Counted from the first letter of the stretch, positions 30,020 through 53,844 are shown. The stretch is 57,563 nucleotides of DNA from an uncultured bacterium (GCA_913055745.1 CAJXJZ010000002.1:1-57563), one strand, 5' to 3'. Translations and numbers: made by a program. The notes: a model not told the origin generated them from the sequence alone.

Positions 30020-32161
30020 ATGGACTACAGTAAACTGTACTGGTTTGCACCATTTGGTTCAATACTTGCACTACTATTTGCTTATTATCTATACACAAAA
30101 GTAAAAAAAGTGGATGAAGGTACAGACAGGATGCGTGAGATAGCCGATGCTGTGCGTGAAGGTGCTACAGCGTATCTAAAAAGACAGTATATGGTAGTAA
30201 CTCTGTTTTTCATTGTGGTTTTCTTTATTCTTCTTTTGCTTGCACTTTTAGGACTTCAACCTATTTTTGTACCATTTGCATTTCTGACAGGTGGTTTCTT
30301 CTCAGGGCTATCAGGCTTTATTGGCATGAGCGTTGCAACTCGCGCAAGCGCAAGAACTGCAAACGCTGCAAGAAAAAGTTTAAACAGCGCACTCCGTGTT
30401 GCTTTTTCTGCAGGTGGTGTAATGGGGCTTGTTGTTGTTGGACTTGCACTATTAGATATGAGTATATGGTTTAAGGTGCTTTCATGGTATTATGGCACTG
30501 TAAAGCACCTTGCAGGGAATGAACTTTTAGAAAACATAACATTTACGATGCTTAGTTTTGGAATGGGCGCCTCTTCACAGGCACTCTTTGCCCGTGTAGG
30601 TGGTGGTATTTTTACAAAGGCGGCAGATGTGGGTGCAGACATAGTGGGTAAAATTGAGGCTGGTATTCCAGAAGATGATCCCCGTAACCCTGCAGTTATA
30701 GCAGACAATGTAGGAGACAATGTTGGTGATGTGGCTGGAATGGGCGCAGATTTGTATGAGTCATATACTGATTCTGTTATCGCTACCATGTCACTTGCTG
30801 CAGCTGCTGTACTTGGGATGAGGGGCGTGGTGCTTCCAATGGTTCTTGCAGGCGGTGGTGTGCTTGCTTCTATTATTGGGACATTTTTTGTGCACACAAG
30901 AGAGGATGCAAGCCAGGGTGCTCTTCTTTCAGCACTTCGCAAAGGGGTCTGGGGCGCAGCCCTTATTTTTGTGATTTGGGCCTTCTTTGCTATAAAGTTT
31001 ATTCTCCCATCTCAGGACTTTAAGATATTCTATGCTGTTTTAGCAGGTCTTATTACAGGACTCATAATAGGTTATTCCACAGAGTACTACACGTCTGACA
31101 ATTATTCACCAACAAGAGCCATATCAAAGTCAGGTCTTACAGGACATGCAACTTTTATACTTGAAGGGCTTTCAACAGGTATGATGTCAACAGCCATACC
31201 TGTTATTGCTGTTGTGATTGCAACACTTGTGAGTTTCTTTGTATCTGGTGGATATGGTAATGTTCAACTTGGGCTTTACGGCGTTGGTCTTTCAGCAGTT
31301 GGTATGCTATCAACCCTTGGCATTACCCTTGCCACAGACGCCTATGGTCCTGTTGCGGATAACGCCGGAGGCAATGCTGAGATGTCAGGTCTACCAGAAG
31401 AGGTAAGACAGAGGACAGATGCACTTGATTCCCTTGGAAATACAACAGCAGCAACAGGTAAAGGCTTTGCCATAGGCTCTGCAGCGCTTACGGCACTTGC
31501 GCTCATTGCTGCATATAACAATGATGTTTTAAGATGGAGTAAGCATTTTGGGCTTTTGGAGGCTTTGAAACATTTTAAGCCACTCTTACAGGACCCCCTT
31601 GTTATGGGTGGTATTTTCATTGGTGCAATGATGCCTTTCTTGTTCTCTGCACTTGCCATAAAGGCTGTGGGTAGAGCAGCGCAGGAGATAGTCGTTGAAG
31701 TAAGAAGGCAGTTTAAAGAGATTAAGGGACTCCTTGAAGGCAAAGCAAAGCCAGATTACGGCAAGGCGGTGCATATAAGCACAAAGGCGGCGCAAAAGGA
31801 GATGATACTTCCATCACTCCTCGCCATCCTGGTTCCAATTATTGTTGGTTATTTCATGGGACCAAATGCTGTAATGGGGCTTCTTGCAGGTGCTCTCACA
31901 AGTGGTTTTGCAGTTGCCCTATTTATGGCAAATGCAGGTGGAGCATGGGACAACGCTAAAAAATACATAGAAAAGGGCAATTATGGCGGCAAAGGGAGTG
32001 ATGCCCATAAAGCCGGTGTCACAGGGGATACCGTAGGAGACCCTTTAAAAGACACAGCAGGGCCATCTCTTAATATTCTTATTAAACTTATGTCCATGGT
32101 TTCCATTGTATTTGCTGGATTTGTTGTTAAATTTAATTTAATAAGGTTTATAGTAAAATGA
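30020..32161 (+). CDS. hppA: K+-dependent membrane-bound pyrophosphatase
   Basis: 713 residues with about 16 membrane helices. It couples pyrophosphate hydrolysis to outward ion pumping. Catalytic clusters are intact: [38 protein letters not shown] and, near the end, [14 protein letters not shown]. The [10 protein letters not shown] segment has Ala rather than Lys, which marks K+-dependent enzymes. GADLYESY has Glu at the position found in Na+-pumping members, so Na+ or Na+/H+ transport is plausible (inference). A GGGGG ribosome site precedes the ATG. It overlaps prs by four bases (ATGA), tying pyrophosphate recovery to PRPP synthesis. Confidence 0.96.
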
Positions 32162-33099
32162 AAGCAAAGGGTATAACGCTTATACATGGTAATGCCTCTT
32201 CAAAACTGGCACAAGGGATTTCAAGGTATCTAAATATACCCATTGTTGATACCCTTGTTTCCAGATTTAAGGATGGAGAGATACGTGTTCAAATAAAAGA
32301 GAATATAAGAGGCTCTGATGTTTTTATAATACAGTCCACTAATCCCCCTGCAGATAACCTTCTTGAATTACTCTTACTTGCAGATGCTGCAAAAAGGGCT
32401 TCTGCCAAAAGAATAACAGCGGTTATTCCATATTTTGGCTATGCGAGACAGGATAGAAAAGACCAGCCCAGGGTCCCAATCTCAGCAAAGGTTATGGCGG
32501 ATCTATTACAAGTAGTTGGAATAAACAGGGTTCTCACACTTGACCTTCATGCAGACCAGATACAGGGATTTTTTGATATTCCAGTGGATAATCTTTTTGT
32601 GACACCTGTTATGAAAGAATATTTTATAGATTTAGACCCTTCTGTTTGGACTGTTGTTGCCCCCGATGTTGGTGCAACGAAAAGGGCAAGAGCAATTGCA
32701 AGGAAACTTGGAAACCTGCCACTTGCTTTGATAGATAAAAGAAGGCCAGAACCCAATGTTGCTGAAGTTTTGCATGTTATAGGCAATGTTCAAGGAAGAA
32801 AACTCCTTATCCTTGATGATATAATTGATACAGGGAATACCATACAGGTTGCAGCAGATAAATTAAAGGCACTTGGCGCACTTGAAATAAAGGTCGCTGC
32901 TGCTCATGCCCTATTTTCTGACAATGCTGTTGAGAAATTGTGTAATGCACCTATAGATGAAATCGTTATAACGGATTCCATAGAGCATAAACAAACATTA
33001 AATATGAAAAAGTTAAAAATACTTTCTGTTGCGCCTCTGCTTGCAAAGGCCATTAAAAGAATACATGATGAGGAATCAGTGAGTGAGCTCTTCATCTGA
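32158..33099 (+). CDS. prs: Ribose-phosphate pyrophosphokinase (PRPP synthetase)
   Basis: 313 residues, the normal class I length. It converts ribose-5-phosphate and ATP to PRPP and AMP. Visible motifs: [20 protein letters not shown] (ATP/flexible loop), [12 protein letters not shown], the PRPP-binding loop [13 protein letters not shown], and a VAAAHALF ending. PRPP feeds purine, pyrimidine, histidine and NAD synthesis, and these phosphoribosyl transfers release pyrophosphate, the substrate of the overlapping hppA product. The start overlaps the hppA stop (ATGA). The C-terminus overlaps the ABC ATPase start by 17 bases. Confidence 0.97.
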
Positions 33100-35701: not shown

Positions 35702-36241
35702 TTATCCTTTAAACGGTTCAAAGTTTACAAAGTCTGCGTGATGGATTATCCATGATTCTGTGGACCTTTTTGTAAAGTCTCCTTCTTTTGAATGTGCAAC
35801 GATGATATGTACCACCTCAAGTGGGAGGCCAACCTCACTTGCAATTATTCCCCCTGATACAGGATGCCTCAATCTTTTACCATAATGGCTTTTTACAACC
35901 TTCCCATCTTTGTCTTTTTCAAACTCAAGGACCTTTCCTACATCGTGTAATATGGCACCTGATATAACATAATCCATACGAATAGGCATTTTATCTCCGT
36001 AGTTCTCTATAAAACTCTCAGCAATCTTTATGGATGTATTAACAACAGCATTTGTATGCTTTAAAAGGCTAATATCTGTTTTATCAAGGAGTAGTGTAAA
36101 TGGGATTTTATCTAAGTCTTCCAATGAAAATGGAGACATCTCTATAGCCTTTTTCCAACATTCTATGGTTTTTTCTCTCAATGTTATGTCTTTTATATCC
36201 ATTATCTTGGGAAAGAGTTTTATTATCTCATTCTTCATCAT
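35702..36241 (-). CDS. HD-domain phosphohydrolase
   Basis: 179 residues with the HD metal site: His in LLKHTNAVV, the GAILHDVGKV doublet and later HIIVAHSKEGD and HHADFVN. The fold hydrolyses phosphate esters of nucleotides or signalling molecules; the substrate is unknown. The start overlaps the citryl-CoA lyase-like gene by 14 bases and uses an AGGAGG-type site inside it, so it belongs to that operon as the last gene. Two ATGs are adjacent (36241 and 36238). The 3' end lies eight bases from the tmRNA promoter. Confidence 0.85.
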   Translation of the reverse strand: MMKNEIIKLFPKIMDIKDITLREKTIECWKKAIEMSPFSLEDLDKIPFTLLLDKTDISLLKHTNAVVNTSIKIAESFIENYGDKMPIRMDYVISGAILHDVGKVLEFEKDKDGKVVKSHYGKRLRHPVSGGIIASEVGLPLEVVHIIVAHSKEGDFTKRSTESWIIHHADFVNFEPFKG

Positions 36242-37004
36242 GGACCTCCCCTATGTATTCGTGGTCCACAGGGTCTATCTTTCTCATAGGTTTTTGTTCT
36301 GTTTGCTCTTCGTAAATATGGGCTATTATACCTGGCACCCTTGCCATTATGAAAAATGCATTCCCTAATTCAGGAGGGAAACCCAGTTCACACAGAACCG
36401 CGGCAATGGCACCATCCACATTAATAGGGAGTTTTTTATTTTTTATCTTATAGATGGCATCTTTTATTGAAAGTGCTGCCTTCACATAATCGCCATAAAA
36501 TCCAGTCTCTTTTGCTATTTCAAATAATCTTGCGGTCCTTGGGTCATTTGTGTGGTATCTGTGTCCAAATCCAAAGAGTCTTTTCTTTTGTGATAGCATA
36601 TTATTTGTAAACTCAAATGCAGCATCTTCAATAGATAGACCTTTTTCCTTTGCAAGATTAACCACATCAATATAGTGGTGCATTGCATTCTCAATCGCTC
36701 CTCCATGCCATTTGTATATGGATAGGATACCACCTGCAAGGGCTGCATTTAATGGACTTCCTGTTGATGCAATGGTTATTGCTGCCAATGTTGAGGGTGG
36801 CGTTGCACCATGGTCAATAGATGAGACAAGTATGGCATCTATCATTTTACCTGTATTTTTGTCAGGCAGTTCGCCTTTTAAAACCAGATAAATGGCCTCA
36901 GGAAAGGAGAGTTTTCCCATAAGTTTATCAATCCTGTATCCCCTCACATAAATCTTATTTGGTTCTATTTTTGTTATTTTTGTTGTCCAATGATTTTCTC
37001 CCAT
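36228..37004 (-). CDS. Citryl-CoA lyase-like protein (citrate synthase fold)
   Basis: 258 residues, only the length of the ACLY C-terminal citrate-synthase-like domain or of Hydrogenobacter citryl-CoA lyase, and far short of true citrate synthase (~370-430). The catalytic triad is visible: His65 in SSIDHGATPPS, His148 in FGFGHRYH and Asp197 in INVDGAIAAVLCELGF. The start of the alignment (YRIDKLMGKLSFPEAIYLVL) and the end (GIIAHIYEEQTEQKPMRKI) also fit. Expected reaction: citryl-CoA to acetyl-CoA and oxaloacetate. AGGAGG precedes the ATG. The gene follows the two synthetase-like subunits by 11 bases, giving all three activities of ATP-citrate lyase as separate genes. Confidence 0.8.
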   Translation of the reverse strand: MGENHWTTKITKIEPNKIYVRGYRIDKLMGKLSFPEAIYLVLKGELPDKNTGKMIDAILVSSIDHGATPPSTLAAITIASTGSPLNAALAGGILSIYKWHGGAIENAMHHYIDVVNLAKEKGLSIEDAAFEFTNNMLSQKKRLFGFGHRYHTNDPRTARLFEIAKETGFYGDYVKAALSIKDAIYKIKNKKLPINVDGAIAAVLCELGFPPELGNAFFIMARVPGIIAHIYEEQTEQKPMRKIDPVDHEYIGEVHDEE

Positions 37005-37015
37005 CTTAAACCTCC

Positions 37016-37912
37016 TTATTTACCAAGCACCCTTTTAACGGCCTCTGGTATGTCTGTTATTTTATCAACAACAATGGCTCCTGCTTCTCTTAAGGCGTTT
37101 ACCTTGCTTTCCCATGAGCCTCTATTACCTTCTACTATAGCGCCTGCATGTGAAAATCTTGTCCCTTTTTGCGCTGCCTTACCACCGATAAAGGCAACAA
37201 GAGGCTTTGTTAATTCACCTTTTTTAATGAGTTCTGCCACCCGCTCTTCCTGTGTGGTGCCGATTTCTCCAAACATAGCAATTACTTCTGTCTGTGGGTC
37301 TTTTTCAAATAATTTCATAATCTCTGGATGTGGCATACCTACAACAGCATCACCGCCAACATGCACGATAGTTGACTCACCAAGCCCTGCTTTTGAGATA
37401 TAGTACGAGATAGCGCTTGTAATACCGCCACTTCTTGATGACACTCCAACAGGACCTGGCTTGAACCATTCTCTTGCTGATTGGGCTCTTCCGCCTATCA
37501 TACCTAAGACGGCCTTTTGTGGACTTAGTACACCGAGGGTATTTGGCCCTATAAACCTTGCCCCCTTTTGTTTCGCATAAGCATGGATTTCAAGTACATC
37601 GTGGATAGGTACCCTGTCTGGTACCAATAAAAGGAGTTTTATGCCAGCCTCTATAGCCTCCAATGCTGCCTCCTTTACAAGTGGTGCAGGGACAAAGATG
37701 CAAGAGGCGTCAAAAGGACCCATTTTCTCCCATGCCTCAAAAACGGTATCAAACACAGGCACACCTTCAACATCCTGTCCACCCTTTCCAGGTGTTACGC
37801 CTGCTATAACCTTTGTGCCGTATTCCTTCATAAGGCGAGTTCTTGTTCGGCCTTCTCTTCCAGTAATACCTTGAACTAAAACCCTTGTGTTTTCATCTAT
37901 TAAAATAGACAT
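37016..37912 (-). CDS. Succinyl/citryl-CoA synthetase alpha-like subunit
   Basis: The start is taken at ATG 37912 (298 residues), preceded by GGGGGG and one base after the upstream stop; an ATG at 37933 adds seven residues. SucD-type layout: CoA-binding Rossmann domain (VLVQGITGREG, IAGVTPGKGGQ), GPNTLGVLSP, then a flavodoxin-like ligase domain with the phosphorylated His255 in RFSHAGAIVEG. The SRSGG segment matches ATP-citrate lyase better than SucD (SRSGT). Expected role: with the ATP-grasp partner it forms an acyl-CoA via phosphohistidine. Citrate is favoured over succinate because a citryl-CoA lyase-like gene follows; succinate cannot be excluded. Confidence 0.8.
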   Translation of the reverse strand: MSILIDENTRVLVQGITGREGRTRTRLMKEYGTKVIAGVTPGKGGQDVEGVPVFDTVFEAWEKMGPFDASCIFVPAPLVKEAALEAIEAGIKLLLLVPDRVPIHDVLEIHAYAKQKGARFIGPNTLGVLSPQKAVLGMIGGRAQSAREWFKPGPVGVSSRSGGITSAISYYISKAGLGESTIVHVGGDAVVGMPHPEIMKLFEKDPQTEVIAMFGEIGTTQEERVAELIKKGELTKPLVAFIGGKAAQKGTRFSHAGAIVEGNRGSWESKVNALREAGAIVVDKITDIPEAVKRVLGK

Positions 37913-37913
37913 T

Positions 37914-39476
37914 TTATCCCCCCTGTTTTTCAATGATTTTTTCTCTATATTCCTTAAGACCTGGAATGGGAAGATCTATATGAATAGCCCCTTCTCCATG
38001 AAACTTACAAGCAATTTCACAGGCAAGACACTCTGTGCATTTACCCTTTTTTGCATCTTCTTTGTCAATTTTTAACATAGGCTTTCCATCTTTGAGTTCT
38101 ATGACATCGTATTGACAAGCATCAACGCATGGCTTTTCTTCACACTTTTCACATAAGGCATGGTCAATATAGATATGACCCGTCATTGTCTCTATCACGT
38201 ACTCTGTGCCCTTTGGCTCATATGCTTTATGAGGTACAACCTTGTGTGGTTTTCTACCGTTTTCTTCTACCAATTTCTTTAACCTATCTGCACAAAAATC
38301 AGGGGAGTCATCTTTTTTATACCCTTCAACCTTACAAGGTAAGTCCTTAAGATATGTATGAAGTATTTCTACGGCTTTTTCTTCATAGTTCCCACCGAGT
38401 CTTAAAACAGCAGGAATATCAATATTGTCTTCTAAGAATGCCTTTACAAAACCCCTTGCTGAATGGAACTGCTCCTGAGATGCAACGCCAGAGCCTGATG
38501 CAAAGTATCCTACAATATTGGGCTGAGACAGGATTATTTTTGCAGCCCTGTACACCTTTGATGCAGGTGGATTGCCACTTGTGTCTGTAAAATTGGCTAT
38601 CTTGAAACCAGCATTCAATACGGCATCCATACTCATCATAGAACCACCGCCACCTGCTCCATGAAAACCTATATGTGTTCCATCATCTGGAACATCCTTT
38701 ACCATTTGTATAAAATAGAATGTGCCCCTATAGTCGTTTTTCTCAACATTCCACGCGATTTTTTCAAGTTCTGTCGCAGGTCTTGGAAACTCCCTTGCTA
38801 TCTCAATACCAAGGTCAGGGTGTCGGAATGCACCATAGTCGTCAATTACTATGTGTGCATCAAGTGCCACAACATCACCATCTTCTGTGATGCCAAGTGG
38901 ATTTGTCTCAAGGCTTCTTGCGTCATACTCCTTCATTGCCTTGTATAGTTTTGCAAGGGTGGTGCCTATCTTGTTTAATATTTTTCCTTTTATACCCGTC
39001 TTCCTTGCAACCTCTCTCGCCTGGTAAGAATAGAGGCCCCTCGTATAGTCTATGTGCATCTTTGCCACTTTGTCTGGATGTGCATTTGCAATCTCTTCAA
39101 TGCCTGAACCACCAATGCTGGAAAATATAAGAACAGGCTCTGCCGTAGCGTCATCAATGATGAAGCCTGCAAAGAGTTCCTGCTTTATGGAGAGTTTTTT
39201 TTCTATGAGTATTGTATCAACGGTAAACTGTCCCCATTCCATACCAAGGAATTTTTCTGCATATTCCTCTACGCATTTGGCATCCTCACAGAAGGCTATA
39301 CCACCTTTGCCCTTTCTCCCTGTCTCCCATATCTGTACCTTGATAACAACAGGATATCCAATCTTTTCCGCGATGTCTACAGCCTCTTGTTTTGTTTTTG
39401 CAATGCCGCCCTCTGGTATTTTCACACCATATTTTTTTAATATTTCTTTTGATTGATACTCAAAGAGTTTTGCCAT
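37914..39476 (-). CDS. ATP-grasp (SucC/citryl-CoA synthetase beta-like) subunit fused to a 2x[4Fe-4S] ferredoxin domain
   Basis: 520 residues. Residues ~1-230 are the ATP-grasp domain (FEYQSKEILKKYGVKIPEG, VVIKVQIWETGRKGKGG, SLETNPLG metal site). Residues ~255-400 are the ligase/CoA domain (GGGGSMMSMDAVLNAG). After a linker, residues ~430-500 are a bacterial-type ferredoxin with Cys442-x2-Cys-x4-Cys-x3-Cys454 and Cys480-x2-Cys-x2-Cys-x3-Cys490, enough for two [4Fe-4S] clusters. SucC and AclB are ~390-400 residues without such a tail. The tail may dock or wire the enzyme to a ferredoxin-dependent 2-oxoacid oxidoreductase using its acyl-CoA product (inference). First gene of the operon; the ATG has a GGGGTAGG site. 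Confidence 0.85.
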   Translation of the reverse strand: MAKLFEYQSKEILKKYGVKIPEGGIAKTKQEAVDIAEKIGYPVVIKVQIWETGRKGKGGIAFCEDAKCVEEYAEKFLGMEWGQFTVDTILIEKKLSIKQELFAGFIIDDATAEPVLIFSSIGGSGIEEIANAHPDKVAKMHIDYTRGLYSYQAREVARKTGIKGKILNKIGTTLAKLYKAMKEYDARSLETNPLGITEDGDVVALDAHIVIDDYGAFRHPDLGIEIAREFPRPATELEKIAWNVEKNDYRGTFYFIQMVKDVPDDGTHIGFHGAGGGGSMMSMDAVLNAGFKIANFTDTSGNPPASKVYRAAKIILSQPNIVGYFASGSGVASQEQFHSARGFVKAFLEDNIDIPAVLRLGGNYEEKAVEILHTYLKDLPCKVEGYKKDDSPDFCADRLKKLVEENGRKPHKVVPHKAYEPKGTEYVIETMTGHIYIDHALCEKCEEKPCVDACQYDVIELKDGKPMLKIDKEDAKKGKCTECLACEIACKFHGEGAIHIDLPIPGLKEYREKIIEKQGG

Positions 39477-50924: not shown

Positions 50925-51803
50925 CTATTTACCTGTTTTGTCAAGTAAGAATGCTGCCTCACTTGCCCTATACGATGATCTAACCAACGGTCCTGATGCA
51001 ACAAAGCGGAATCCCATTTTTAAGCCGACTTCCTTATAGTAATTAAATTCCTCAGGGGTTACATATCTTTCTACTGGTAGATGTCTTCTTGTGGGCCTAA
51101 GATACTGACCTATGGTGATTATTTCACATCCCGCATCTTTTATGTCTTGCATGGTTTCTATAATCTCATCTGCTGTCTCCCCAAGTCCTACCATGAAGCC
51201 TGATTTTGTTATAATATGGGGGTTTAATTTTTTTGCAATCCGAAGAGTTTCTAAGGATTTTTCATAGGAGAATCTTCTGTCCCTTACCATTTTGGTAAGG
51301 CGTTTCGTTGTTTCAACATTGTGGGCGAATACATCTACGCCAGAGGATATTACTATTTCTATTAATTCTGGGTCTGCATAAAAATCAGGTGTCAAAACTT
51401 CGACATATATTTGAGGATTTAATCTTTTTATTTGTTTTACGGTCTCAGAATAGATATGTGCACCCTGGTCTTCTAAATCGTCTCTTGTAACAGAGGTTAA
51501 TACCACATAATTTAAGCCCAGCTCCAATACTGCCTTTGCTACCCTCTCTGGTTCTTCCTCATCCACTATGCCATGCGGATTGCCAGTTAAAGTGGCACAG
51601 AACTTGCAATGTCTTGTGCATACATTACCTAAGATCATGAAGGTCGCTGTACCACTTCCCCAACATTCGCCAATATTTGGGCATCTTGCCTCTTCACATA
51701 CTGTATGTAGTTTGTATTTACGCAATATCTTTTTTACATTCCTAAATTGCCCTGCGCCGGGAAGTCTTGTTTTAAGCCAGTTAGGTTTTCTCTTTATCTC
51801 CAT
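50925..51803 (-). CDS. lipA: Lipoyl synthase
   Basis: 292 residues from ATG 51803 (MEIKRKPNWLK), preceded by AGAGG. The longer frame from 51920 would overlap thi4 by 140 bases with non-family sequence, so it is rejected. The auxiliary cluster motif CX4CX5C (CEEARCPNIGEC), the radical SAM motif CX3CX2C (CTRHCKFC) and the C-terminal SSYRA serine ligand are all present. It inserts two sulfurs into octanoyl chains to make lipoate for 2-oxoacid dehydrogenases or the glycine cleavage system. Its start lies 23 bases inside the 3' end of thi4. No lipB or lplA is near. Confidence 0.97.
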   Translation of the reverse strand: MEIKRKPNWLKTRLPGAGQFRNVKKILRKYKLHTVCEEARCPNIGECWGSGTATFMILGNVCTRHCKFCATLTGNPHGIVDEEEPERVAKAVLELGLNYVVLTSVTRDDLEDQGAHIYSETVKQIKRLNPQIYVEVLTPDFYADPELIEIVISSGVDVFAHNVETTKRLTKMVRDRRFSYEKSLETLRIAKKLNPHIITKSGFMVGLGETADEIIETMQDIKDAGCEIITIGQYLRPTRRHLPVERYVTPEEFNYYKEVGLKMGFRFVASGPLVRSSYRASEAAFLLDKTGK

Positions 51804-52572
51804 CTTGTAGCCTCTTAGAGAGTATTTCAAAAAGTTTTTTACCTGAGAGGAGCATGCCACCAAAGATAGGTCCCATTCTGTAATATCCGAACACAGCCGC
51901 TGTTGACATTCCACAAACAAAGAGCCCGGGGTATACCTCTTTCGTATTATTTACAACCCCTTTTTCTGCAGGTTCTGCAAATAATGAGCGCTCTCCCAAG
52001 GGCTTTCCTGTGGGGGTGTTGAGTTTTACATCATTTTTTCTTGACAGGGTTTTGACTACTTCGTGCTCATGCCCTGTGGCGTCAACAACAAATTTTGCCT
52101 CAATGGTTAGTGGATCTATGGGAAAACCTTCCATGAGTGCAAATGTATTGTTGATAACGACCCCTCTTACCCTCTTTTCACTTATTAAGAGGTCTTCTAC
52201 TGTGATGAGGTTGAATAGTTGTGCGCCCTTTTTAACTGCACCGAAAATAAGACCTGATGCAAGTTCAATGGTATCAAATACAAAAAGGCCTGATGGGTCT
52301 TCCACATAGGAGATATTAAAATCCTGTAGTACTTTTAGAGCCTCCTTTTGAACCGTTGCGTATTTAAATCCCATACCACCTCCCCATACACCACCACCTG
52401 GGGATAGCCTTTTTTCCAATACTGTGACCTTTATCCCTTTTTCACTTAAGTAACCTGCTGCAACGAGTCCAGAAGGCCCTGCGCCCACAATAACTACATC
52501 TGTGGATAGGTTATCCATTAATGCATTAAAATGCGATTTTAGTATAGCCCGGGATATTTCTATTTCTTTCAT
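51781..52572 (-). CDS. thi4: Thi4-type thiazole synthase, non-cysteine type
   Basis: 263 residues. The NAD-binding glycine loop VVIVGAGPSGLVAAGYLSEKG, the GGGVWGGGMGF segment and the closing GYYRMGPIFGGMLLSGKK are diagnostic of Thi4 (archaeal-type short form). The sulfur-donor position, Cys in yeast and plants and His in Methanocaldococcus, is Pro151 here (GFPIDPL), so this is not a suicide enzyme and must use free sulfide. That suits a sulfidic anaerobe. It lies ten bases after thiC and overlaps lipA. No thiG, thiH or thiF is seen. Confidence 0.92.
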   Translation of the reverse strand: MKEIEISRAILKSHFNALMDNLSTDVVIVGAGPSGLVAAGYLSEKGIKVTVLEKRLSPGGGVWGGGMGFKYATVQKEALKVLQDFNISYVEDPSGLFVFDTIELASGLIFGAVKKGAQLFNLITVEDLLISEKRVRGVVINNTFALMEGFPIDPLTIEAKFVVDATGHEHEVVKTLSRKNDVKLNTPTGKPLGERSLFAEPAEKGVVNNTKEVYPGLFVCGMSTAAVFGYYRMGPIFGGMLLSGKKLFEILSKRLQDGDKEKT

Positions 52573-52581
52573 GTTGCCTCC

Positions 52582-53844
52582 TTAATCTCCAAGTATTAAA
52601 AATACACAGTATTCCCCACACATCGTGCAAGGTCCTTCACCTGAACGCTCTTTTCTCATCTCTCTTGCCCTTTCTGGGTCAATGGCAAGTTCTATCTGCC
52701 TATCCCAATCAAGGGCTTTCCGTGCCTTTGATAACTCATTGTCCCAATTATCTGCATTGGGGAATCCACGTGCTATATCCGCTACATGTGCCGCAATTCG
52801 TGCAGCAATTACGCCTTCATGTACATCTTCCTTTGTTGGAAGTCCAAGATGCTCCGAGGGTGTCACATAGCAAATAAAGTCTGCTCCAGCCCATGCTGCC
52901 ATGGAGGCGCCAATAGCAGAGGTGATGTGGTCATAGCCTGGAGCAACATCTGTAACCACAGGCCCGAGCAGGTATAAAGGCGCATTGTGGGTGAGTTTTT
53001 TGATGCGCTCTACTGCAGGTTTTACAAGGTGTAAAGGCACATGCCCTGGACCCTCTATCATGCTCATAACACCCCGACGAAGTGCCCTTTGCTGGAGTTC
53101 TCCCAATACCTCTTGCTCTCCAACCTCAAACATATCCCCTGCATCATAAATGGCACCGGGTCTTAATCCATCGCCAAGTGAAAGCACAGCATCGTATTTC
53201 TTTGCAATATCAAGGAGCCTGTCGTATTGCTCATAAAGTGGGTTTTCTTGACCTGTACTCTTTATGTATGCCGCTGTTATGGCACCGCCTCTGGATACAA
53301 CTCCACCTAACCTTTTGCCTTTTCCATACCTGTCAATGAGTTTTTTAATCACACCTGCGTGAACAGTAATGAAATCAACCCCCTCTTCCAACTGCCTCTC
53401 TATCACATCAAAGAATTCTTCTGTGTCCAGTCTTACCACTGCTCCTCTTTTTATTCTTGCAAGTGTTGCAGCCTCGTAAATAGGTACAGTTCCAACAGGT
53501 ACTGTGGATTCTGAAAGGACCATTTTCCTTATTTCCCGAAGGTCATCGGATAATGATAGGTCCATTACAGCATCTGTTTTCGCTCTGAGTGCAGTATGAA
53601 GTTTCTCCTTCTCTTCTTTTAGGGAGGACCTTAAGGTGCTCGTTCCTATATTGGCATTTACCTTAACTCTTGTGCCTTTTCCAATAACTTTTGGTCCCCT
53701 CTTGGTTCTATACCCTATTACTACAGATTCGCCTTTTAATATGTTTTCTGCGAGTTTCTCTACTTCAATATGCTCATTTTTGGCGATTTCCTTTAGGTCT
53801 TCTGGAATAATGCCTTCCCTTAATGTTTGAATGAGCGTTTTCAT
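52582..53844 (-). CDS. thiC: Phosphomethylpyrimidine synthase
   Basis: 420 residues, the compact form lacking the long N-terminal extension. It converts AIR to HMP-phosphate by radical SAM chemistry. It has the C-terminal CX2CX4C cluster motif (CTMCGEYC), the MSMIEGPGHVPLH segment and VTDVAPGYDHITSAIGA. Together with the next gene, thi4, it supplies both halves of thiamine. The 67 bases upstream hold an AAGGAGG ribosome site and no recognisable TPP riboswitch, so control by this element is not supported. Confidence 0.97.
   Translation of the reverse strand: MKTLIQTLREGIIPEDLKEIAKNEHIEVEKLAENILKGESVVIGYRTKRGPKVIGKGTRVKVNANIGTSTLRSSLKEEKEKLHTALRAKTDAVMDLSLSDDLREIRKMVLSESTVPVGTVPIYEAATLARIKRGAVVRLDTEEFFDVIERQLEEGVDFITVHAGVIKKLIDRYGKGKRLGGVVSRGGAITAAYIKSTGQENPLYEQYDRLLDIAKKYDAVLSLGDGLRPGAIYDAGDMFEVGEQEVLGELQQRALRRGVMSMIEGPGHVPLHLVKPAVERIKKLTHNAPLYLLGPVVTDVAPGYDHITSAIGASMAAWAGADFICYVTPSEHLGLPTKEDVHEGVIAARIAAHVADIARGFPNADNWDNELSKARKALDWDRQIELAIDPERAREMRKERSGEGPCTMCGEYCVFLILGD

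Follow-up and report, generated by a model that had tools for sequence, protein, structure and literature searches.

Citrate cleavage sets the direction, forwards or backwards, in which the tricarboxylic acid (TCA) cycle runs, and the organisms able to fix carbon by that route are commonly identified through their SucCD, Ccs and Acl annotations. The closest described systems are the citryl-CoA synthetase CcsAB and citryl-CoA lyase Ccl of Hydrogenobacter thermophilus, ATP-citrate lyase (AclAB, ACLY) and succinyl-CoA synthetase (SucCD). Planctomycetes Ccs/Ccl genes have been annotated as SucCD and citrate synthase, and the section of that account devoted to these genes mentions no ferredoxin domain on them (PMC5459899). 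Here, we describe a related gene set on a 57,563-nucleotide stretch of DNA from an uncultured bacterium (the window hereafter), in which the ATP-grasp (beta) subunit of the synthetase carries a C-terminal ferredoxin-like tail. From sequence comparison, the tail is best read not as a stray fusion but as the third subunit ("gamma", an iron-sulfur protein) of an acyl-CoA synthetase family, and on balance we favour explaining the whole as a citrate synthetase/lyase cassette with gamma as an iron-sulfur subunit of the synthetase. No ferredoxin-fused citryl- or succinyl-CoA synthetase was found described in the literature, although most subscription journals lay outside this search and an earlier description is possible.

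The gene set studied occupies positions 39476–36228 on the minus strand, and a further gene, for an HD-domain protein, extends it to 35702. An earlier note on this DNA had claimed a three-gene synthetase/lyase set at 36228–39476, with a beta tail that bears eight cysteines in two patterns and is unusual for SucC or AclB. The beta, alpha and lyase open reading frames (ORFs) were indeed found there and nearly abut, the cysteines are exactly those proposed, and no SucC or AclB among the solved structures carries such a tail; the limit to three genes did not stand, as the HD gene (36241–35702) had been overlooked. The features of the synthetase and lyase are as follows:

37914..39476, minus strand: beta, 520 amino acids (aa), an ATP-grasp/SucC-like core (residues 1 to ~405) plus a C-terminal ferredoxin domain; Pfam ATP-grasp_2, 171 bits; predicted local distance difference test (pLDDT) score of the model, 92; best folds SucC 3ufx and citryl-CoA synthetase 6hxq.
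37917..38204, minus strand: ferredoxin-like tail of beta, residues 425–520, homologue of stand-alone gamma (46–52% identity, E 1e-18 to 6e-20, fused tails against one stand-alone gamma); AlphaFold2 (AF2) model pLDDT 93, with ferredoxin-type folds among its matches.
38115..38153, minus strand: cysteine motif I, C442-x2-C445-x4-C450-x3-C454, invariant (100%) across 81 fused relatives; almost all stand-alone gammas retain it.
38007..38039, minus strand: cysteine motif II, C480-x2-C483-x2-C486-x3-C490, 98–99% conserved in fused relatives; C480 is lost in Desulfobacterota gammas and C483 is replaced by Asp in Chloroflexota gammas.
37016..37912, minus strand: alpha, 298 aa, SucD-like CoA ligase with a HAGA histidine loop and SRSGG signature; NCBIfam sucCoAalpha, 311 bits (cut-off 353); own clade (100/98) outside SucD.
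36228..37004, minus strand: citryl-CoA lyase-type enzyme, 258 aa; NCBIfam PRK06224.1-6, 284.5 bits (cut-off 212); PDB 6hxp, E 4e-65; grouped with 6hxp in the tree.

The length of alpha is 298–305 aa depending on the start codon, either the ATG at 37912, which is the start used in relatives, or an upstream TTG at 37933, which is less likely.

Both synthetase subunits fall short of the NCBIfam cut-offs for succinyl-CoA synthetase, with beta scoring 249 bits against the SucC model (cut-off 375.55) and alpha 311 bits against the SucD model (cut-off 353.2). Phylogenetic trees place the tailed betas in one clade outside SucC (support 100/100) and their partner alphas in one clade outside SucD (100/98), so that placement of the pair among ordinary SucCD did not hold. 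On scores and trees together, an ordinary SucCD with a random fusion was rejected. Beta does not group with CcsA either: its own clade (100/100) is nested in a clade (100/97) with other gamma-partnered betas, and the exact placement of CcsA is unsure because it forms a long branch. Alignment revealed one insert (RPxTExE) and two loops (GGG[GA]S and SGNP-like) that are common to beta and the CcsA and AclB references and absent from SucC, and alpha reads SRSGG where SucD reads SRSGT.

By sequence, the lyase belongs to an established family, that of citryl-CoA lyase (Ccl). At 258 aa it is a short citrate-synthase-fold lyase of the kind (~260 aa) expected for Ccl, and it exceeds the cut-offs of both NCBIfam models concerned (284.5 bits against 212 for PRK06224.1-6 and 279 against 245 for PRK06224.1-3). 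Its closest solved relative is the H. thermophilus enzyme 6HXP (E 4e-65), alignment to which showed that the active-site blocks DHG..PPS, HGGA, G[FY]GHR and NVDGA are all present; the two enzymes also group in the tree, with full citrate synthase very distant. These scores, match and tree bear out the earlier proposal of a two-enzyme synthetase and lyase system with a Ccl-type lyase. Citrate is the likely substrate, and in the uncultured bacteria that have it this enzyme pair probably serves to cleave or to form citrate.

The tail motifs, CX2CX4CX3C (442–454) and CX2CX2CX3C (480–490), are the two four-cysteine motifs of a 2[4Fe-4S] ferredoxin domain, here in a ferredoxin-like fold whose matches are weak, and we infer that the tail binds two [4Fe-4S] clusters. 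Across the 81 aligned relatives each tail cysteine is 98–100% conserved while most other tail positions vary, so the cysteines are not there by chance. The whole beta chain was predicted with a pLDDT of 92 and the tail blocks mostly above 90; modelled in isolation (AF2), the tail/gamma reached 93. Fold matches of gamma are mostly of ferredoxin type and include the archaeal RNA polymerase D subunit and parts of Etf/Fix, Hdr, hydrogenase and oxalate oxidoreductase.

The window belongs to a genome of WOR-3-like type, its nearest named relatives being labelled WOR-3 bacterium and Candidatus Hydrothermota. A tailed beta was found in 13 of 147 genomes of the phylum, one of the 13 being a fragment that ends before the tail. 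Two peptide patterns specific to the family, scanned against named genomes, yielded 335 confirmed relatives, the best 80 of which were analysed as loci. These 80 come from more than 10 bacterial lineages, among them, going by record names, Aminicenantes, WOR-3/Hydrothermota, Chloroflexota, KSB1, Zixibacteria, Caldithrix, Marinimicrobia and Syntrophobacterales. The search for the ferredoxin-fused architecture that the earlier note had called for thus recovered all eight cysteines in 78 of 80 relatives, the exceptions being one truncation at a contig end and one single Cys-to-Ser change; this recurrence in other assemblies rules out a sequencing or assembly artefact. A short lyase and a close alpha, adjacent or not, were present in every searched genome with a tailed beta (35/35). 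A full-length citrate synthase was found in 27 and a second SucD in 26 of these genomes, and the idea that such genomes generally lack a full-length citrate synthase was dropped on this count. Six of the 35 gave no citrate synthase by PF00285; the unrelated Re-type enzyme was not searched for.

The ferredoxin-like part also occurs as a separate gene. Two Chloroflexota genomes that contain the fused form have in addition a sister operon consisting of beta, a separate 107–115 aa ferredoxin-like gene, alpha and a lyase of the 3-hydroxy-3-methylglutaryl-CoA (HMG-CoA) lyase type. A search with the small Chloroflexota protein identified a stand-alone gamma (~100 residues) in 20 of 395 sampled Desulfobacterota genomes, where, in the loci inspected, it lies between a beta ~44% identical and an alpha ~50% identical to those of the window. 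The Desulfobacterota operons examined at greater length mostly continue with a CitE-type (HpcH/HpaI) lyase, often near glycolate-oxidase-like, malic-enzyme or pyruvate:ferredoxin oxidoreductase (PFOR) genes, a content that would fit a malyl-CoA-type pathway. In one further locus (L224, 3694–4908; 404 aa) gamma is fused to the N-terminus of alpha. Fused tails and stand-alone gammas align over their whole length. All betas that have a gamma partner, separate or fused, fall into a single clade (100/97), inside which those with a fused gamma again make up one clade (100/99); the tail is therefore best taken as the gamma subunit, fused to beta once. Gamma is kept with three unrelated lyase types and therefore goes with the ligase. 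The trio with its Ccl-type lyase stands, but the restriction to citrate in the earlier note was too narrow, given sister enzymes paired with CitE-type (malyl-CoA-like) or HMG-CoA-type lyases.

Stand-alone gamma scores under the Pfam ferredoxin cut-offs and is therefore easily annotated as hypothetical. In Desulfitobacterium hafniense, a SucC (ACL21112), a hypothetical protein (ACL21111), a SucD (ACL21110), a citryl-CoA lyase beta subunit (ACL21109) and a malic enzyme (ACL21108) are neighbours by accession, and all five proteins are 5- to 30-fold up in pyruvate fermentation (PMC9888536, Table 1). Their order matches the Desulfobacterota beta-gamma-alpha-CitE operons with the hypothetical protein in gamma's slot; from gene order, ACL21111 is predicted to be gamma. 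Separately, locus L139 (2569–4845) has genes for a CcsA-like beta and alpha and, after them, a distinct 68-aa gene whose two cysteine motifs are like those of a bacterial ferredoxin; a divergently transcribed PFOR-like gene lies nearby.

A scheme is proposed where alpha and beta act as an ATP-dependent acyl-CoA synthetase that would convert citrate into citryl-CoA, and the lyase would cleave this to acetyl-CoA and oxaloacetate. In principle, each step could also run in reverse. The tail would be the iron-sulfur gamma of the synthetase family, fused to beta in the window's lineage. It is not needed by the ligase chemistry and, since related enzymes of other bacteria have it as a distinct third subunit, it looks like an undescribed iron-sulfur subunit of the whole family. 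Its action would be on the ligase: it may keep the complex together, or it may switch it according to redox state, and a role in assembly or redox control is the most likely one. The lack of a match to a PFOR query (see below) and the changing lyase type both point to such a role on the ligase. A redox switch would be plausible: a normal citrate synthase is also encoded in 27 of the 35 genomes and in that of the window, and ATP would be wasted if the two were active at once.

Several observations weigh against parts of this proposal. Ferredoxin models score just below their cut-offs on the window's tail (Pfam Fer4_7, 24.8 bits, cut-off 27), and fold matches of the isolated tail are weak by E-value (best E 2e-3). 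Tailless Ccs/Ccl-type operons exist in the same phylum, so the tail is unneeded for the chemistry generally. The loop that reads ANNT in CcsA and ANFT in AclB is ASQE in the window's beta and its aligned fused relatives. Two residues of the ANNT/ANFT loop contact citrate in human ACLY structures; with ASQE in place of AN.T, the acid may therefore not be citrate, or may bind differently. Finally, the sequence would fit regulatory and structural roles of gamma alike.

A purely structural cluster, one that would stabilize or assemble the synthetase without taking part in redox events, by analogy with subunit D of archaeal RNA polymerase, is a possible if tentative alternative. The cluster-A ligands (C442, C445, C450 and C490, assigned by the usual ferredoxin pattern) are retained by nearly all sequences in every group. 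In the second cluster, C480 is missing from the Desulfobacterota sequences and C483 is replaced by Asp in those of Chloroflexota, so a two-cluster wire for relaying electrons is not a conserved feature. The RNA polymerase D subunit, an iron-sulfur protein of an archaeal non-redox enzyme, is among the best-ranked fold matches of gamma (with weak E-values), and the tail travels with the ligase rather than with electron carriers. However, conservation of all eight cysteines at 98–100% in the fused clade is above structural need, and oxygen-labile clusters would be a costly structural choice.

It is doubtful that the cassette is a synthetase/lyase for another acid, such as 2-methylcitrate. The ASQE replacement in the acid-binding loop would agree with this, as would genes of PrpD/MmgE type (the 2-methylcitrate dehydratase family), which lie downstream in five loci, but PrpD-family enzymes can act on citrate too and the closest lyase is the Hydrogenobacter citryl-CoA lyase. 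Moreover, the commonest neighbours are of aconitase type (further along the cassette in 21/31 loci) and isocitrate-dehydrogenase type (19/30), counted among loci with an adjacent lyase and sufficient sequence.

The earlier note had suggested that the tail may dock to a ferredoxin-dependent oxidoreductase, of pyruvate or of 2-oxoglutarate, and channel acyl-CoA; its second suggestion, redox sensing, may still apply. Docking, whether it served channelling or an exchange of electrons, now appears unlikely, although, among solved structures, 8ys5_D is nearest in sequence to the gamma profile and is annotated as 2-oxoglutarate:acceptor oxidoreductase (E 2e-4), the window's genome has four matches to the 2-oxoacid oxidoreductase family POR_N, and PFOR lies near some Desulfobacterota loci (L217). 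Hdr-like and Etf-like genes also stand directly upstream of the tailed beta in one Chloroflexota locus (L130, 2795–11554), the only such case noticed among the 80. One PFOR query (tblastn) found no match in any of the 80 fused-type loci, a search that could miss two-subunit or divergent enzymes; neither the ligase nor the lyase reaction involves net redox, and gamma is retained with three unrelated lyases. An ordinary succinyl-CoA synthetase with a decorative tail is very improbable and largely refuted: alpha and beta are overall most similar to SucCD among solved structures, but both lie below the SucCD cut-offs and outside its clades, the window's genome has a separate SucC and SucD, and the lyase occurs in all 35 genomes searched.

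The citrate cassette that we favour includes a fourth gene, which overlaps the end of the lyase gene by 14 bases:

35702..36241, minus strand: HD-domain protein, 179 aa; Pfam HD, 36.9 bits; metal-site residues largely invariant in 41 sequences.

These residues are H62, H/D99-100, H126, H145, H150 and D170. The HD gene follows the lyase in 37 of 41 loci with an adjacent lyase and enough sequence. It accompanies Ccl-type operons with or without the tail, in varying order (after the lyase or before beta), and was not found in the CitE-type operons among the loci examined. A tailless HD-beta-alpha-Ccl operon occurs in the same phylum (L132, L133, L136 and L141; L131 is similar without the HD gene). 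The beta of these operons forms a separate clade beside SucC, and LeuC/LeuD-type dehydratase genes lie around them, with two sets in some. Specificity of the HD protein for the tailed form, which had been considered, was rejected for this reason; its presence in tailless operons indicates that it goes with the Ccl lyase.

The window's genome also contains a citrate synthase-aconitase-isocitrate dehydrogenase operon. Together with the separate SucC and SucD, this indicates that the cassette is neither the cell's succinyl-CoA synthetase nor its only citrate route. Elsewhere in the window, overlapping ORFs at 50925–53844 resemble, by eye, a thiazole synthase of Thi4 type that a frameshift may have split, beside a ThiC-like gene, and a membrane-bound pyrophosphatase-like gene is followed directly by a PRPP-synthetase-like gene at 30020–33099 (likewise by eye).

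The family is widespread, many of its members belong to uncultured anaerobes, and its labels are split between "succinyl-CoA synthetase" and "hypothetical protein"; gamma gives a means to recognize such operons in genomes. Its predicted cofactor is oxygen-sensitive yet unneeded by the family's chemistry, which makes it possible to test whether iron-sulfur clusters control or assemble an enzyme of substrate-level phosphorylation. Speculatively, gamma may define an old subfamily of CoA synthetases, ADP/ATP-dependent and specific for 3-hydroxy acids, whose partners are citryl-CoA-, malyl-CoA- or HMG-CoA-type lyases, its clusters serving as a redox switch that sets when ATP is made from, and when it is spent on, citrate and malate.

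Among known enzymes, archaeal RNA polymerase subunit D likewise has a ferredoxin-like iron-sulfur domain in a non-redox enzyme, an unrelated one with weak structural similarity. SucCD shares the fold, the CoA-ligase chemistry and the HAGA histidine loop, whereas the window's synthetase differs in its clades, sub-cut-off scores, extra tail and lyase partner. The same overall reaction as for ATP-citrate lyase would be expected, and the folds are related, but the ferredoxin part is absent from every ATP-citrate lyase structure found. An alpha-lyase fusion as in AclA occurs only in some Chloroflexota relatives (L112, L118, L122 and L230, alongside a ferredoxin-tailed beta), whereas in the window each of the two has an ORF of its own. 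H. thermophilus CcsAB and Ccl (6HXQ and 6HXP) are alike in comprising three separate polypeptides with a lyase of the same family, and CcsA shares the GGGGS, GNPPA and RPxTExE/DxRG features with beta. In contrast, CcsA has no ferredoxin domain and reads ANNT in place of ASQE, the window's beta and alpha belong to separate clades, and an HD gene is attached in the window. The system would thus work like a citryl-CoA synthetase with a citryl-CoA lyase, its synthetase being a separate clade that, from its sequence, we do not file as CcsAB.

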